The notes: generated by a model not told the origin, from the letters alone. DNA of 64,000 bases from Spirochaetota bacterium (GCA_029974015.1 JARKUF010000027.1:62001-126000); one strand, 5' to 3'. Shown: positions 45,923 to 53,205, counted from the first letter of the stretch. Program-made: numbers and translations.

Positions 45923-47134
45923 ATGCGATTTTCAGACAGGATCATGAAAGTAAAGCCTTCCCCCACCCTGGCCATCACGGCCATGGCCAATGCCATGAAA
46001 GCGAAGGGGATTGATGTGATAGGCTTCGGTACGGGAGAGCCCGATTTCGATACGCCCCGTTTCATCAAGGAGGCGGGAATACGGGCCATCGAATCCGGAA
46101 AAACCAAGTACACCCCCGCCGGAGGAATTCCCGAACTGAAAAAGGCCATCGTAGAAAAATTCCGGCGTGACAATGTCCTGGAGTACAGCGTTTCGGAAGT
46201 GACGGTCAACTGCGGCGGAAAGCATTCCTTTTATAATCTGGCCCAGGTCCTCTGGCAGGAGGGCGATGAAGTCATCGTGCCGGCGCCCTACTGGGTGTCC
46301 TATCCCCCCATGATACAACTCGCCGGCGGCGCCCCCGTTATCGTCAACTCCAGCGAAGAAACGGGATACAAGATCACCGCCGCCGATCTTGCAAAGGCCG
46401 TGACGCCCAGGACACGGGCCGTCATCATCAACTCTCCCTCGAACCCCAGCGGGGCAACCTACACGAGGACGGAGCTTGAGTCTCTTTCGGAAGTTGTGTT
46501 GGGACACGACCTCATGGTCCTTTCCGACGACATCTACGAATCGATCCTCTACGACGGGGCGGCCTTCTGCAACTTCGCCAACCTTTCGGAGGAATTGAAA
46601 AAACGCACCATCGTCCTCAACGGCGTATCGAAGGCCTACTCCATGACGGGATGGCGCATCGGCTACATCGCCGGCGACGAGGAAATAATAAAAAAGGTGG
46701 AAATTCTCCAGAGCCAATCCACCTCAAATCCCACGTCAATCGCCCAGTGGGCCTCCGTGGAGGCCCTCACGGGGGACCAGACGGTGATATCCGACATGGT
46801 GGCCTCCTTTGACCGGCGCCGAAAGCTCATCGTCGACGGCCTCAACTCCGTACCCGGAATACGCTGTCTGATTCCTCCCGGGGCCTTTTACGCCTTTCCC
46901 GCCACGAAGGGCGTCTACGCCCTTCCCGGGTGGAAGAAGGTTGAAGAGAAATACCAGGCCCCCCACAGGTCTTCAATCCTCACCTCGTATCTCCTCCAGG
47001 AGGCAAAAGTGGCCGTGGTACCCGGAGTGGAATTTGGCGCGGACGGAAACATACGCCTCTCCTTCGCCACCTCCGACGAAAATATCGCCGAGGGCGTGGA
47101 GAGAATCCGTGAAGCTGTGGGACGCCTCGCCTAA
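45923..47134 (+). CDS. PLP-dependent aminotransferase (aspartate aminotransferase-like)
   Basis: IGFGTGEPDFDTPRFIKEAG, SPSNPSGATYTRTEL, LNGVSKAYSMTGWRIGYIAG (PLP Lys), NIRLSFATSDENI. Confidence 0.95.
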   Translation: MRFSDRIMKVKPSPTLAITAMANAMKAKGIDVIGFGTGEPDFDTPRFIKEAGIRAIESGKTKYTPAGGIPELKKAIVEKFRRDNVLEYSVSEVTVNCGGKHSFYNLAQVLWQEGDEVIVPAPYWVSYPPMIQLAGGAPVIVNSSEETGYKITAADLAKAVTPRTRAVIINSPSNPSGATYTRTELESLSEVVLGHDLMVLSDDIYESILYDGAAFCNFANLSEELKKRTIVLNGVSKAYSMTGWRIGYIAGDEEIIKKVEILQSQSTSNPTSIAQWASVEALTGDQTVISDMVASFDRRRKLIVDGLNSVPGIRCLIPPGAFYAFPATKGVYALPGWKKVEEKYQAPHRSSILTSYLLQEAKVAVVPGVEFGADGNIRLSFATSDENIAEGVERIREAVGRLA

Positions 47135-48651
47135 TTGTCCGAGTATTTCCAGGCCTTGAGATAGTAGGTGTACAGCACGGGCCTGTTGAAGGTGTTCAAT
47201 CGCGGCGGCGCCGCGACGCTGTCGGCGGGAAAATGGCGCGCCTGTGCGTATGTGTCCGCCGAGAAGTGGCGAAACCTCACACCCGGAAGTGAAGCGGGCC
47301 CCCGGGAGGGGGCCGGCGCCATAACAAACCCCCAGTCTCCGAAGGAAGGCACGTAGACATGATACGGAACGGAGGAGCCGAAGGCTTCTCCGACAGTTTT
47401 TTCAATGCACCAGAAGGCCTCCCGGGCCGAAAGAGGTGAAGTAGCCTGGGTTACGAAGACCCCCCCGGGGGCAAGGGCCTTCTTCACCATTGCGTAAAAC
47501 TCCGCCGAATAGAGCTTCGATATCGACTCATCGTGGGGGTCCGGAAAATCGGCGATGATTACATCCTGTTTCGCCGGGCTTCGCGCAATCCAGGCAAAGG
47601 CGTCGCCTGTCACGACGGACACGCGGCCGTCCCGCAGGGAACCATTATTAATTCTCCGAAACGACGAGTTCTCCTTTGCAAGGCCCGTCATCACCGGGTC
47701 CAGCTCCACCAGGGTCACCTGCTTAACCGACCTGTCTTTTAAAATCTCCCGCACCGCAAGTCCATCTCCCCCTCCAAGGACCAGGACTTTCTTTTCCCGC
47801 GCGGCGCAGGAAAGGAGGGCGGGAAACACCAGCATCTCATGGTACCGGTATTCGTCGAAGGTTGAAAACTGGAGGGACCCGTCAAGGTAGAGCCTGAAAT
47901 CGTCGCCATTGCGGGTCAGGACAATCTCCTGAAAGGCGGTGCGCCTGGTGAAGACCACATCATCGAAATACAGCCTTTTATTCATTAGCCCCGTCATAGC
48001 ATTGGAGGAGAAGGCCATGGCGGCGATGAGGAGAAGCGCCCCGACAGGGTAAATATAATCGATGCGCCGCCTCCCGGGATACCGCACCACGGCAATGAGG
48101 GCTATGGATATTGCCACATTCATGGCGCCCACGGCAAGGCTCGTGAGGTATCTCCCGGCATAGGGAAAGAGCACCAGGGGAAAGAGGAGTGAACCCGCCA
48201 GCCCTCCGATGTAGTCGAGTGAAAAAACGCTGGAGAGGACCTCCCGGAGGTCGCCATAGTTTTTCATCACGCGGGTGATGAGGGGAATTTCAAGTCCCAC
48301 GAGGACACCCACAGCGGCGATGAAAAACACGTGAAGAAGATAGTACGACGATTCAAAGGAGAAAAGCAACGTAAGGACGGTCACGGAGACGCCCCCCACG
48401 AGGCCCAGGGTCGCTTCGATATAGATGAAGGTGCGGAGAAGGTCTTTCCCGATAAACCGGGAAAGCCAGGAGCCGACCCCCATGGAAAAAAGGAAAAACC
48501 CGATGGTGATGGAGTACTGCTGGACGGGGTTCCCCAGAAGATACGTAGCCAGGGAACCCAGGACAAGCTCGTAGACAATGCCGCAGAGGGACAGGATGAA
48601 AACCGAGAAGAGGAGGAGCCGCTGCTCGGTGACGCGAAGGCCCCTTTTCAC
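47131..48651 (-). CDS. Multi-TM protein with C-terminal spermidine synthase-like (aminopropyltransferase) domain
   Basis: About seven N-terminal hydrophobic helices; KVLVLGGGDGLAVREILKDRSVKQVTLVELDPVMTGLA...DVIIADFPDPHDESISKLYSAEFYAMVKKALAPGGVFVTQATSPL. Confidence 0.88.
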   Translation of the reverse strand: MKRGLRVTEQRLLLFSVFILSLCGIVYELVLGSLATYLLGNPVQQYSITIGFFLFSMGVGSWLSRFIGKDLLRTFIYIEATLGLVGGVSVTVLTLLFSFESSYYLLHVFFIAAVGVLVGLEIPLITRVMKNYGDLREVLSSVFSLDYIGGLAGSLLFPLVLFPYAGRYLTSLAVGAMNVAISIALIAVVRYPGRRRIDYIYPVGALLLIAAMAFSSNAMTGLMNKRLYFDDVVFTRRTAFQEIVLTRNGDDFRLYLDGSLQFSTFDEYRYHEMLVFPALLSCAAREKKVLVLGGGDGLAVREILKDRSVKQVTLVELDPVMTGLAKENSSFRRINNGSLRDGRVSVVTGDAFAWIARSPAKQDVIIADFPDPHDESISKLYSAEFYAMVKKALAPGGVFVTQATSPLSAREAFWCIEKTVGEAFGSSVPYHVYVPSFGDWGFVMAPAPSRGPASLPGVRFRHFSADTYAQARHFPADSVAAPPRLNTFNRPVLYTYYLKAWKYSDN

Positions 48652-48932
48652 TATTTCTGGGATTCAGTCTGCGTTCCCGAGGACGGGCCTATCTGGCGCT
48701 GGAGGCTCGAGGGCGATATTATCACCGCCGCCACAATAATGGAAATCCCCAGGATGATTGAGCCGATGATGACGGCCAGGGAAGTGTTCTGGTCTTCCTC
48801 AATTTCCTTTTTAATGGAAAAGGGCGTGAAAGCCTTGATGATTAAAAATCCCAATCCCATGAGAATGATGCCCACGATAGAGTAGACCGCGGTTTCGCAG
48901 ATGCCGTACATCAGATTCGTTAAATAAGCCAT
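48651..48932 (-). CDS. DUF350-like small membrane protein
   Basis: MAYLTNLMYGICETAVYSIVGIILMGLGFLIIKAFTPFSIKKEIEEDQNTSLAVIIGSIILGISIIVAAVI, DUF350-type layout. Confidence 0.78.
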   Translation of the reverse strand: MAYLTNLMYGICETAVYSIVGIILMGLGFLIIKAFTPFSIKKEIEEDQNTSLAVIIGSIILGISIIVAAVIISPSSLQRQIGPSSGTQTESQK

Positions 48933-49050
48933 TCTTGTTTTCCCCCTCTTGAAAAGATATTCACCCCTTCATGTGCCGGGGCGTTTTGCTTTCTCGCCTT
49001 CGGTCCCGGGAAAGGCGGCCCCATCATATTAACAGTAACGCCCGGCCGCT

Positions 49051-49254
49051 TCACTTCCCGAAGCGCGGCCCCCGGGAGCTGTAAGGCCCGCCGTGATAAT
49101 ACACGCCGCGCTGGCTTCCCACGCGCAGGGACTTGCGCTGTTCCCTGTGCCTGGTCACATAGGCCCGGCCTCCCCTTTCGTATCCCACCATGGACCAGGA
49201 GAGCCCTCCGGAAAGAGAAATGAGCACCAGGCTCGTGACAATCGTCCGTATCAT
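49051..49254 (-). CDS. Small exported hypothetical protein, basic Gly/Arg-rich mature part
   Basis: MIRTIVTSLVLISLSGGLSWSMVGYERGGRAYVTRHREQRKSLRVGS...; 12 nt from the next cassette ORF. Confidence 0.5.
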   Translation of the reverse strand: MIRTIVTSLVLISLSGGLSWSMVGYERGGRAYVTRHREQRKSLRVGSQRGVYYHGGPYSSRGPRFGK

Positions 49255-49266
49255 GGTTTTCTCCCG

Positions 49267-50730
49267 TCAGTCCTTCGCCACATCGAAGGGAAGTTCGTTG
49301 TACGTCCTGGCCCTGACCTGGTTGGTCCCCCAGAGTATCATAAAAATTACAAGGGCAATCACAAAGTAGCGGTAGCTCCGCACACCCTCGAAGATGGTGA
49401 TTGTAAACGCATCGGGATTGCGCCTGTTCTGGCTGTACACCTCAAGATACAGATGGTATCTGCCGGGCTCGTCAAGAAGAAAGGCTTTTGTGGCGCCCGT
49501 CTCCGATTCGTGCCAATATCCCTCGTCGTCGTATCCGTCCTCGTCCCAAAAATCCCCGGCCACGGAGAGCGATTCCAGCGGCTCGGTGAATGTGTCCACC
49601 TCGTCCAGGACGCTCCCCAGAGGGCTCCCGGCCCCTTCTCCCGGAGTAGAGGACATGGCATCGGGAGAGGATGCGTCCCGGGGCGGCGCCTTCATTGTGA
49701 GCTCGCGGTACTTATCTTCCTTTATTAGCATAAGCCGGTACGAAACCCACTCCCTGGAGATGGGCTGGAGAGAAGTATCGGCCTGGACCCGCACCTCATA
49801 GAGCGCATCGGTGCGGGAAAGCTCCACTGCCTTCGTGTACAGGACCTGGCTGAAGAAGAAGCTCCCTCCTTCTTCATTCTTGCTCTGGTTGTCGGTGAGT
49901 ATTATTCTCGCCGAGCGGTCCACGGCGCCGGGGATTTCCCTTCCGGAAAAGCAGCCCCACACCGCGCCAGCGAAGGAGAGGGCGCACATGATAAGATAGA
50001 CATAGGCCTTCTTCCGATACAGGTCCCGCTTGCGCATGGTGTTCTCGTAGGAGTCAAGATACTCGTCCTTCCTGAAGGCCATAATGACCTTCTTGACGGA
50101 AACCCGCCTCCCCCGTGTAACCGAAACCTCATCATCCGATTGTTCGATGGTGAACTGGTAGTGGTTTTTGGTAAAATCATAACATCTCACGGGCTCGCCT
50201 ATCTCCGGCTGCCAGGTGAGTTCACCTTCGGCGTAGACGATGCGCGCAACAAAACCTGTGTTTTTTTTCGAAAAGCGCCGCCCCTCGAACTCGAACTGCG
50301 AAGGTGAAGCTTCCAGGTCCATCGACTGCGGGACATACTCCGTGTAGGCGTGGATTTCCCCATCTTCCTCGACAAACCAGTGAAATACGCCATCCGAGTC
50401 GACAGCGAGCCACTCGTCCCAGGTTTCGAGCTCCCATTCTTCCTCGTCCTGGTACCGTATGCGGCCTATGATTTCGTACTCCACGCCGTCTATCTCGCCC
50501 TTTGCGCCGAGCTTCAGGGCGGAGTTTTCCAGGCCAAACCTGAAAAGATCGGAGAAGACATTATAATACTCGCTCGTTTTTTGGTCGTACTCTCTGCCGC
50601 AAGAAAGGCATTTGGCGATGGGGACCGATTCGGCGTCTTCTCCGCTTCCTTCGATGCGGGTGCTCTGGCCAAGGTCCCTGCCGCAGGTCCCGCACTTGAT
50701 GGAGCGAATGTCCTCATTTTTTTCAGGCAT
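49267..50730 (-). CDS. DUF4178-like membrane protein with N-terminal zinc ribbon
   Basis: IKCGTCGRDLG...AKCLSCGREYD; KGEIDGVEYEIIGRIRYQDEEEWELETWDEWLAVDSDGVFHWFVEEDGE; two TM segments. Confidence 0.75.
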   Translation of the reverse strand: MPEKNEDIRSIKCGTCGRDLGQSTRIEGSGEDAESVPIAKCLSCGREYDQKTSEYYNVFSDLFRFGLENSALKLGAKGEIDGVEYEIIGRIRYQDEEEWELETWDEWLAVDSDGVFHWFVEEDGEIHAYTEYVPQSMDLEASPSQFEFEGRRFSKKNTGFVARIVYAEGELTWQPEIGEPVRCYDFTKNHYQFTIEQSDDEVSVTRGRRVSVKKVIMAFRKDEYLDSYENTMRKRDLYRKKAYVYLIMCALSFAGAVWGCFSGREIPGAVDRSARIILTDNQSKNEEGGSFFFSQVLYTKAVELSRTDALYEVRVQADTSLQPISREWVSYRLMLIKEDKYRELTMKAPPRDASSPDAMSSTPGEGAGSPLGSVLDEVDTFTEPLESLSVAGDFWDEDGYDDEGYWHESETGATKAFLLDEPGRYHLYLEVYSQNRRNPDAFTITIFEGVRSYRYFVIALVIFMILWGTNQVRARTYNELPFDVAKD

Positions 50731-50733
50731 CGT

Positions 50734-51339
50734 CTATTCCCGCACCTCGATGTCGCGCCTCAGGAGGACCCGGCCTATGAAAAGTTCAAGCTCGTCTTCG
50801 GACAGCTCAATGGAAGTTTTTTTCCCTTCCCAGATGCCGTCGATGTATTTCACCGGGGTACCCGGCTCCGTATAGTGCATTAACTCGCCCTCGCCGCCCT
50901 CAATGACGGCGGAGCCCTTTTCCTTTATCATCACCTTCCGGTCGCCTAACATTATGTTCTGCCCGGCCTTCAGGGCGTCGATGTTTTCCGGGACTTCCAC
51001 GGCTTCGATGAGTTCCGTGAAAAGGGTGTAGGTCCCCTCGTCCTCGGCAAACCACGCCGGCGCGCCGTCGTAGTCAAGGAACCACTCGTCGAAAAAGCCC
51101 CCGGAATACTTGTAGCGCAGCCTCCCGTGGGCGGTGAAGGATTTTCCCAGGATGGTGCCGGTGCTTCCCACTTTAAAAATGGACGGAAACTCGGCAAGTT
51201 TAGGGTGCTTTCCCGAGGGGTCCAGACCGTCGACCTTCACCCGGAGATGGGTGTCGCAGTAGGCGCAGACGACTACCTTGCTGAAGCGGTTCTTCACTTC
51301 AACCGGCGCGCCGCATGAAGAACATGTGAAGGATGACAT
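50734..51339 (-). CDS. DUF4178-like protein with N-terminal zinc ribbon (soluble)
   Basis: FTCSSCGAPVEVKNRFSKVVVCAYCDTHL; GTILGKSFTAHGRLRYKYSGGFFDEWFLDYDGAPAWFAEDEGTYTLF. Confidence 0.75.
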   Translation of the reverse strand: MSSFTCSSCGAPVEVKNRFSKVVVCAYCDTHLRVKVDGLDPSGKHPKLAEFPSIFKVGSTGTILGKSFTAHGRLRYKYSGGFFDEWFLDYDGAPAWFAEDEGTYTLFTELIEAVEVPENIDALKAGQNIMLGDRKVMIKEKGSAVIEGGEGELMHYTEPGTPVKYIDGIWEGKKTSIELSEDELELFIGRVLLRRDIEVRE

Positions 51340-51348
51340 GTTTTTCCT

Positions 51349-52476
51349 TTAGCCTATCTTCTCGCCGCACTCAGGGCAAAATTTCGCTCCCGCGGCGACC
51401 GCGGCGTTGCACTTGGGGCAAGTCCCACCCTGCATGTTCTGCCCGCATTCGGGGCAGAACTTGGCGCCCATGGGGACCATGGCATTACATTTGGGGCACG
51501 GCGTTCCGGCCACCATCTCCTTCCCGCATGAAGAGCAGAACTTCGCCGCCGCCTGGTTGGGGGCATTGCAATGGGGGCATGCCTTCATCCCCTGCTGGGC
51601 GCCTCCCTGCTGCTGGCCCATGACGCCACCCATCATGCCTGCCATCTGCTGGCCCATCCCGACGCCCATGCCGGCCCCCATCATTCCTCCGGCCATGCCG
51701 TTGGAACCGGCGGCCTTCTCCATGGTGTCGAAGGTGCGCTTCATCTTGTAATCGTCGCCGCCCAGGATATTGATCTCCGCCTTGTCGGCCAGGGCCTTTT
51801 TGAGGCGCTTAACCGATTCGTCCTCCTCGGGGAAGTTCACCGATTCGATGGCGAAGCGCACGAGCTCGAGGCCGAAGCTGGCGAACTCGTCCGCCATCTT
51901 CGCCTTTCCGGCCACCCCTATTTCCTCATAGAAAGCGGCCACCTTGAGGATGCTGATGTTCTGCTTCATCATGGTTTCCGCAAGCAGGTCCTGTAGCTTC
52001 GGCAGGATCACCATGTCGCGAAGCGCGGAACCGATGTCCTCGGTGTTGAAGGCATGCCAGGTGCCGATGGCCATGATGAGGAGGCCCTTTGCGTCCTGTA
52101 CGCGGATTGAATAAGCCCCGAAAGCCCTCAGGGGGATTGCGATATTATATGTAGGATCGAGGAATTGGATGGGCTGTTTGGTTCCCCATTTGAGGTTAGG
52201 AATCTCGGCCTTGTTGATATAGTAGACTTCGGCCGGGAAGGGTGATTTGCCGCCGAAGGGAAGGTTGATGAGCTTCTCGAGAATGGGTATGTTCCCGGTC
52301 TTCAGAGTATGTCGGCCGGGGCCGAAGCTGTCGAGGGCCTTCCCCTCACGGAAGAAGACCGCCTCCTGGCCTTCCTTTACGATGAGCTGTCCCCCCATCG
52401 AAATGGCGCCTTCGGGAAATTTATGGATGATATCGCCTCTCTGGTTGTCCCATTGTACGACGTCAAGCAATGCCAT
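51349..52476 (-). CDS. SPFH/band-7-like protein (YdjI / 'virion core'-annotated type) with C-terminal zinc-ribbon array
   Basis: MALLDVVQWDNQRGDIIHKFPEGAISMGGQLIVKEGQEAVFFREGKALDSFGPGRHTLKTGNIPIL; Met/Gly-rich linker; CPHC...CSSC, CPKC...CPEC, CPKC...CPEC. Confidence 0.88.
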   Translation of the reverse strand: MALLDVVQWDNQRGDIIHKFPEGAISMGGQLIVKEGQEAVFFREGKALDSFGPGRHTLKTGNIPILEKLINLPFGGKSPFPAEVYYINKAEIPNLKWGTKQPIQFLDPTYNIAIPLRAFGAYSIRVQDAKGLLIMAIGTWHAFNTEDIGSALRDMVILPKLQDLLAETMMKQNISILKVAAFYEEIGVAGKAKMADEFASFGLELVRFAIESVNFPEEDESVKRLKKALADKAEINILGGDDYKMKRTFDTMEKAAGSNGMAGGMMGAGMGVGMGQQMAGMMGGVMGQQQGGAQQGMKACPHCNAPNQAAAKFCSSCGKEMVAGTPCPKCNAMVPMGAKFCPECGQNMQGGTCPKCNAAVAAGAKFCPECGEKIG

Positions 52477-53004
52477 TTATATTACCTCCAGTATTACATT
52501 TTTTCTCTGGTCGAAAGACTTTTCGAATTCTTCTATGAGCTTCCTTATTCTTGTTATTTCAGCGTCGAGGGCGTCCCCCTCGGCCCCGTCGAGCTTAGCG
52601 ATCTCCGGCTCCAGCTCGTCCGCCCTGCCTATCATGCGCCAGTCGAACTCGAGGATTTTATTGGAGTCGTCCTGGGACACCGTCACGCGGGACACTGCGC
52701 CGGACTTGCCGTAGTCGGCATGGGCGCATTTTTTGTGGACTTTCTCAAGGAGGGTGTTGATCGCTTCCAGGTCCGTGAGACGGGACAGTTCGCCCTTTCG
52801 CGTCTGGTCCTTGATGGCCCCCTCAACGGTCTTCTTGTACGACAGGAGCTTCTCGGCGATGAAATCCCGGACCACTCGGTCCGCCTCGTACATCTCCCCC
52901 TTCTCCACATAGCCGGAGTATCCGGGCAGTTTGCCGATGAGTCTGTCCACCAGGTCTTTTGACTCGCCGATTCTTTTTTTTAAGTTCTCAAGATCAGGCT
53001 GCAT
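52477..53004 (-). CDS. Coiled-coil-rich hypothetical protein, first gene of the SPFH/DUF4178 cassette
   Basis: MQPDLENLKKRIGESKDLVDRLIGKL...EIAKLDGAEGDALDAEITRIRKLIEEFEKSF; 3' end abuts the SPFH gene. Start set at 53004 rather than 53115. Confidence 0.62.
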   Translation of the reverse strand: MQPDLENLKKRIGESKDLVDRLIGKLPGYSGYVEKGEMYEADRVVRDFIAEKLLSYKKTVEGAIKDQTRKGELSRLTDLEAINTLLEKVHKKCAHADYGKSGAVSRVTVSQDDSNKILEFDWRMIGRADELEPEIAKLDGAEGDALDAEITRIRKLIEEFEKSFDQRKNVILEVI

Positions 53005-53081: not shown

Positions 53082-53205
53082 AACTGTAACTGCCGCCAAA
53101 CTCAGCACTTGGCATGCCCCGCCCGCCGAAGGCGGGAGGGGAAACATTGTTTTGTGACTGCCCTTATGTTTTTCCGCCCGCCTTCGGCGGGCGGAAAAAC
53201 AAATT
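53082..53205 (+). repeat. Composite hairpin repeat, copy R7 (two hairpins)
   Basis: CCCCGCCCGCC-GAA-GGCGGGAGGGG (53117-53141) and GTTTTTCCGCCCGCC-TTC-GGCGGGCGGAAAAAC (53168-53200, perfect), joined by TTGTTTTGTGACTGCCCTTAT. Confidence 0.78.

Follow-up and report, generated by a model that had tools for sequence, protein, structure and literature searches.

Operons of the CesT-PspA/DUF4178/DUF350/7TM-SpeE type, in which a domain of seven transmembrane (7TM) helices is joined to a spermidine-synthase domain, are known in general terms (Ravi et al. 2024, PMC11237479). That study reported that DUF4178, DUF350, PspA and Band-7 proteins are associated with polyamine genes, and it suggested 'aminopropylation of other substrates' in these operons (PMC11237479). 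We analyzed a stretch of 64,000 nucleotides from a Spirochaetota bacterium (GCA_029974015.1 JARKUF010000027.1:62001-126000), hereafter the window, which carries on its minus strand, at 47131-53004, a seven-gene operon that is a distinct variant of this known class. The operon ends with a membrane-bound aminopropyltransferase (mSpeE), and its fifth gene encodes a small exported protein. New here are a terminal lysine in the small protein of all 92 loci read and Gly-Lys (GK) ends in unrelated exported proteins of sister operons. Together with the conserved enzyme, this suggests that mSpeE attaches a polyamine-like arm to the lysine of the gene 5 protein rather than producing free spermidine. An earlier reading of the window from its sequence (the original prediction) had pointed to the recurrent association of DUF4178, DUF350, SPFH/PspA and polyamine genes, which was already in print (PMC11237479).

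The second major group of Ravi et al. shares with the window DUF4178, DUF350, a 7TM-fused spermidine-synthase domain and an extra exported protein in an operon of six or seven genes. It has CesT/Tir and PspA where the window has a dyad of a coiled-coil protein and a Band-7 protein with zinc ribbons, and a lipoprotein where the window has a cysteine-free protein of 67 residues with a hydrophobic N-terminus; in addition, DUF4178 is doubled in the window. PF04012 and the CesT/Tir families gave no match among the window's seven proteins. In Bacillus subtilis ydjFGHL, too, a Band-7 protein (YdjL) bears zinc ribbons at its C-terminus, but the PspA and TPM-domain partner of that system are not among the seven genes, and the system is not described as having an aminopropyltransferase. 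A fusion of a major facilitator superfamily (MFS)/7TM domain with spermidine synthase, accompanied by AdoMetDC and DUF350, was reportedly described by Li et al. in 2019; it is said not to replace spermidine synthase in Escherichia coli, and an acceptor other than putrescine was reportedly proposed and left open. That fusion reportedly has in common with the window a membrane aminopropyltransferase associated with SpeD and DUF350, whereas we propose a specific candidate acceptor.

Like the window, the E. coli yjfIJKLMC operon encodes a DUF350 protein (YjfL) and an envelope protein, together with an enzyme for attaching a polyamine to a peptide, the kind of activity that we propose for the window. 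The two differ in chemistry: YjfC, named peptide-spermidine ligase in RefSeq, is an ATP-grasp ligase that joins ready-made spermidine to a peptide, yjf has neither an aminopropyltransferase nor DUF4178, and a profile search found no ATP-grasp glutathionylspermidine-synthetase-like domain among the window's seven genes. The peptide-spermidine ligase activity of YgiC and YjfC is credited to Pederick 2023 by two later papers (PMC12270671 and PMC12568646). Since the yjf operon shares DUF350 and holds this ligase, the joining of polyamines to peptides has a precedent in this operon family. The last two residues of YjfM (L191:7388-8026), the neighbor of YjfC, are Gly-Gly and may be where ligation takes place, in parallel to the terminal lysine. 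In diatom silaffins, lysines carry aminopropyl and oligo-propyleneimine chains (PMC4557024). Silaffins and the hypusine of eIF5A resemble our proposal in that a lysine side chain is extended by aminopropyl or aminobutyl groups, but their lysines are internal, and the modification is made in eukaryotes by other enzymes.

The terminal lysine of the small protein

Gene 5 (49051..49254, minus strand) encodes a membrane-anchored protein of 67 residues with one hydrophobic segment and the end ...RFGK; the codon of its C-terminal lysine, AAG, lies at 49054..49056 (minus strand), immediately 5' of the stop codon. Its counterparts were picked by rule, as the first hydrophobic short open reading frame (ORF) after DUF4178, in every locus where this region was readable. 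Lysine was the last residue in 86 of 86 such ORFs, preceded by Gly in 53 and by His (HK) in 33. Six further loci (L054, L083, L085, L086, L088 and L098), in which the gene lay below the hydrophobicity threshold or was masked by a longer frame, were read by hand and also ended in GK, which brings the count to 92 of 92 in nine phyla. The background frequencies in the same loci were 8.1% for a terminal lysine and 1.2% for GK or HK (999 ORFs of at least 150 residues). Among the partner proteins a terminal lysine was found in 0/80 mSpeE, 0/35 SPFH and 2/148 DUF4178 proteins. Beyond the lysine and a tail rich in Gly, Ser and Tyr, the sequences of the small-protein family are widely divergent. Records retrieved after the pattern had been noticed also end in lysine: Novosphingobium (annotated in RefSeq, ...PSHK), Ensifer (...ESGK), Tritonibacter (...NRVK) and Gemmatirosa (...RHGK).

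The same residue closes exported proteins of sister operons. A lipoprotein of up to 264 residues in locus L045 (PspA and CesT_Tir_1) and a 510-residue lipoprotein of Alteromonas, both without detectable family, end in GK, as do exported proteins of 61-75 residues in loci L055, L057 and L059, the last of which contains PspA. Exported proteins from PspA/CesT or TelA loci, these lipoproteins among them, terminate in ...FGFGK and ...PSSGK. Because unrelated exported proteins in aminopropyltransferase operons keep their terminal residue, this residue would most simply be the site of chemistry. The original prediction had named the small exported protein but had overlooked its invariant C-terminal lysine, which points to a likely acceptor. 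The main text of Ravi et al. 2024 (PMC11237479) makes no mention of the terminal lysine, and an earlier notice elsewhere may exist. On a 604-kb Alteromonas plasmid (L186:5944-12602), mSpeE, speD, a TelA-family protein, DUF4178, a GK-ending lipoprotein and a long DUF350 protein stand together.

Conservation, active site and probable aminopropyl donor

A survey of 296 Spirochaetota genomes, with mSpeE counted over its curated cut-off, found DUF4178 in 39 and mSpeE in 40. Both were present in 36 genomes, DUF4178 alone in 3 and mSpeE alone in 4 (Fisher p = 3e-38, related genomes not being independent). The full arrangement of coiled coil, SPFH, DUF4178, DUF4178, small protein, DUF350 and mSpeE occurs in about 12 genomes of the window's taxonomic order and is far beyond chance. 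For the cross-phylum sample, a species genome collection was scanned with an mSpeE alignment and the best 80 loci among the matches listed were examined; contig ends cut some of these loci, so the counts are lower bounds. These loci come from Acidobacteriota, Gemmatimonadota, Bacteroidota, Pseudomonadota, Myxococcota, Elusimicrobiota, Fibrobacterota, Bdellovibrionota, Nitrospinota and Spirochaetota. They contain an amine oxidase dependent on flavin adenine dinucleotide (FAD) in 79 cases, DUF4178 in 67, DUF350 in 61, speD in 51 and SPFH in 32, and the AdoMet_dc and Amino_oxidase families were confirmed with Pfam in example loci. The core of DUF4178, small protein, DUF350 and mSpeE was found in many phyla; the neighborhood is thus kept widely, where the original prediction had seen restriction to close relatives as fatal to its case. 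Independent RefSeq annotation of a Novosphingobium plasmid lists SPFH, DUF4178, DUF4178, a small hypothetical protein, DUF350, polyamine aminopropyltransferase, FAD oxidoreductase and speD. Judging by twin-arginine-like motifs at 52 of 55 N-termini, the neighboring amine oxidase looks exported by twin-arginine translocation (Tat). In 23 of the 80 loci the oxidase is followed by a membrane protein of 340-400 residues without a Pfam family (for instance L143:10645-11667 and L127:10584-11693).

mSpeE itself is encoded by gene 7 (47131..48651, minus strand) and consists of a 7TM domain and an aminopropyltransferase domain. It belongs to the NCBIfam family of membrane polyamine aminopropyltransferases PRK03612 (NF002956; 584.8 bits, cut-off 472, residues 6-502), matches the Spermine_synth profile at 4e-35 and stays below the speE equivalog cut-off (144.7 vs 249.55 bits). 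The YHE and GGGDG motifs and both aspartates of the gate-keeping loop are invariant in alignments A1 and A2 (16 and 44 sequences), and in A2 this holds for Y270, H271, E272, G293-G295, D296, G297, D318, D350, D368, D371 and Q402. The catalytic motifs align with those of the solved enzymes 1uir, 6bq2 and 1iy9. As judged from these alignments the active site is intact, and the loss of catalytic residues that would have told against the original prediction is not seen. In the AlphaFold model (predicted local distance difference test, pLDDT, 91) seven transmembrane (TM) helices precede the catalytic domain, and the nearest folds are solved aminopropyltransferases. Lysine and arginine are numerous in loops TM2/3, TM4/5 and TM6/7 but almost absent from TM1/2 and TM3/4; after TM7 the segment has a net negative charge. 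Given this distribution, the positive-inside rule applied to seven helices puts the N-terminus on the cytoplasmic side and predicts an extracytoplasmic catalytic domain. Residue 497 of mSpeE (window numbering) is Tyr in 58/58 GK systems and Phe in 30/33 HK systems.

Decarboxylated S-adenosylmethionine (SAM) is very probably the donor of mSpeE, because speD lies in the operon of 51 of the best 80 loci. The original prediction had counted the absence of speD from the window as a clue and suggested searching the genome for it. That search found, side by side at C29 (L164:5525-7475), genes for a canonical SpeE, for a SpeD homologue and for SpeD proper. The absence from the window carries no weight, since SpeD is encoded elsewhere in the genome and other phyla hold speD inside the operon. 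The SpeD homologue at C29, in which the customary ESHxxxHTWPE motif is absent, could be an ornithine decarboxylase derived from SpeD; where fused SpeD-SpeD-homologue genes lie upstream of speE, they have been described as ornithine-to-spermidine units (PMC10407285). Across the phylum SpeD was found in 38/40 genomes with mSpeE and in 76/256 others (p = 8e-16, kinship ignored), and the association was weaker within the window's order (19/20 vs 16/26, p = 0.013). In 16 genomes mSpeE was the sole aminopropyltransferase found, and 15 of these had a SpeD match, 13 of them strong (>115 bits).

The seven genes and the variant of the window's order

The seven ORFs are separated by gaps of 0, 9, 3, 12 and 118 nucleotides, followed by an overlap of 1 nucleotide. 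We reproduced the place, strand and spacing given in the original prediction, and profile matches bore out its domain labels (Band_7_1 with zinc ribbons, DUF4178 twice, DUF350 and Spermine_synth). Gene 1 (52477..53004, minus strand) encodes a helical, coiled-coil protein of 175 residues, a distant relative of the Leptospira family LIMLP_15305 in NCBIfam (61.8 bits, cut-off 210); a Pfam search gave it no family. PspA and CesT were considered as identities for gene 1 and rejected, as neither matched in the profile search. Its start is most likely the ATG at 53004 chosen originally; a longer frame begins at 53115. Directly upstream, at 53100-53200, lie inverted repeats rich in GC (CCCGCCTTCGGCGGGCGG-like), which may represent a terminator or a dispersed repeat.

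Gene 2 (51349..52476, minus strand) encodes a Band-7/SPFH protein with C-terminal zinc ribbons, an architecture like that of YdjL (Band_7_1, 6e-50; double zinc ribbons, 2.5e-24). Genes 3 and 4 hold the two copies of DUF4178 (profile matches 4e-7 and 4e-18), confirming the duplication noted before. The gene 3 protein (50734..51339, minus strand), a zinc ribbon with DUF4178, is predicted to be cytoplasmic, and that of gene 4 (49267..50730, minus strand) combines a four-Cys ribbon and DUF4178 with a predicted TM helix at about 233-261, an extracytoplasmic domain of about 190 residues and a second TM helix at about 454-479. Comparison of its AlphaFold model, of modest quality (pLDDT 75), with the Protein Data Bank gave no informative match for the DUF4178 fold, and a search for solved relatives of genes 1, 2 and 4 matched only the zinc ribbons. 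Gene 6 (48651..48932, minus strand) encodes a YjfL-type DUF350 protein of 93 residues with two TM helices (1e-14). DUF350 proteins of the window's order, this one included, are extended at the C-terminus by a tail whose last residue also tends to be lysine (18/61 DUF350 proteins overall); those of other phyla mostly end in ...AAAVH or ...AAIHG.

What sets the window's variant apart is the coiled-coil/Band-7 dyad in the place of CesT-PspA and the doubled DUF4178. Its mSpeE falls in a fully supported clade of 17 rows that is kept within its taxonomic order. In the tree an mSpeE labeled Leptospiraceae has zero distance to that of a genome from the window's phylum, which places the window in Spirochaetota. 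The FAD amine oxidase was not found in the window's genome or in the order's other genomes with mSpeE, save for one partial match of 44 bits, and is present in 12/20 mSpeE genomes elsewhere in the phylum. In the relative G004 the dyad stands alone (L182:8114-9698), unlinked from DUF4178 and mSpeE, and its Band-7 protein has a C-terminal SHOCT domain and no zinc ribbons. Because the dyad is free-standing there and the oxidase was not found, a free dyad seems to have been added, in the window's order, to the core of DUF4178, small protein, DUF350 and mSpeE, without the oxidase.

Proposed pathway and rival explanations

We hypothesize that the operon encodes a membrane polyamine-modification system in which mSpeE aminopropylates the C-terminal lysine of the gene 5 protein. 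Taken as a whole this is the best explanation, to which we give a probability of roughly 45%. SpeD, encoded elsewhere in the genome, would supply decarboxylated SAM, and mSpeE would move the aminopropyl group onto the side-chain amine of the terminal lysine. Lysine fits as an acceptor because the 4-aminobutyl group of its side chain closely resembles putrescine, the substrate of ordinary enzymes of this fold. The DUF350 and DUF4178 proteins may serve as the membrane scaffold, and the complex may be organized at the inner face of the membrane by the coiled-coil/Band-7 dyad, where sister operons use the CesT-PspA dyad. In most lineages the Tat-exported FAD amine oxidase would act next on the product, a step that the window's order lacks. 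The pathway would yield an exported protein whose polyamine-like tip could bind to anionic lipid, to the cell wall or to lipopolysaccharide. To our knowledge, aminopropylation of the C-terminal lysine of exported proteins has not been described in bacteria.

Several observations weigh against this proposal. The topology of mSpeE rests on charge counts and helix number, and an external catalytic domain would require decarboxylated SAM to cross the membrane. For the small protein, charge places the C-terminus outside in phyla other than the window's, but in the window's order the flanks of the TM segment carry +1.2 before and +1.4 after it, and orientation is not settled by charge. Thirteen mSpeE loci without nearby DUF4178 show no small lysine-tailed gene nearby, so this gene is tied to DUF4178/DUF350 more strictly than to mSpeE. 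Co-evolution of the GK or HK type with mSpeE residue 497 (88/91 agree) was considered as support and rejected; the agreement goes back to only two changes in the tree, which is no proof.

A terminal lysine can also have another use, since in Braun's lipoprotein it is the residue of wall attachment, and the small protein may be an Lpp-like tether whose lysine is joined to peptidoglycan by an L,D-transpeptidase, with mSpeE serving separately, for example in envelope polyamine synthesis. The family is membrane-anchored with a tail of 30-40 residues, and there are lipoproteins among the sister proteins; most of the small proteins, however, have no visible lipobox, and the linkage to SpeD, mSpeE and the amine oxidase is left unexplained. 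We consider such a tether unlikely as the full account, and it is compatible with lysine modification, as aminopropylation could alter the wall link. The other of the two strongest rivals, which we rate as rather unlikely, is that mSpeE has a membrane lipid as its aminopropyl acceptor, or produces free polyamine at the membrane, and that the lysine tail serves complex assembly or sorting. Membrane anchoring suits a lipid acceptor, the fold and active site match spermidine and thermospermine synthases, and the 16 genomes with mSpeE as sole aminopropyltransferase would fit. The window's genome and others like it, however, have a separate canonical SpeD-SpeE set, which indicates that spermidine is made there by other means than mSpeE, and a lysine as the very last residue across nine phyla finds no account.

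Sister operons have PspA/CesT, Band-7 and DUF350 partners (PMC11237479), as would suit a membrane-stress scaffold like the phage shock protein (PSP) system, with the enzyme domain a non-catalytic sensor of polyamine or SAM. The invariance of all catalytic residues in both alignments and the presence of SpeD in the operon make this improbable. Most improbable of all is an anti-phage or toxin-resistance locus. SPFH/PspA-type proteins do act in envelope stress responses, and the relative on the Alteromonas plasmid adjoins a TelA-family gene, but the mad2 profile of PADLOC matched the Rossmann part of mSpeE weakly and partially (3.8e-19), PADLOC gave no other notable match in the seven genes, and the window's mSpeE clade is kept within its order. 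The phage and toxin resistance put forward in the original prediction is therefore unsupported, whereas its picture of a membrane system holds, with an enzyme that probably acts on an acceptor other than free putrescine.

More tentatively, we extend our proposal beyond the window. A dedicated pathway for aminopropylating exported proteins at their C-terminal lysine, membrane-bound and probably extracytoplasmic, may exist in at least nine phyla, the product being oxidized in most lineages. DUF350 operons would then form a general polyamine-tip class, working either by aminopropyl transfer to a terminal lysine or by spermidine ligation to a terminal carboxylate. What membrane spermidine-synthase fusions modify, and why SpeD is kept beside them, have been open so far, and a single residue now gives a direct test. 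If the proposal is true, it would add a protein modification, explain why these DUF families co-occur across much of the bacterial tree, and link polyamine metabolism to maintenance of the envelope.

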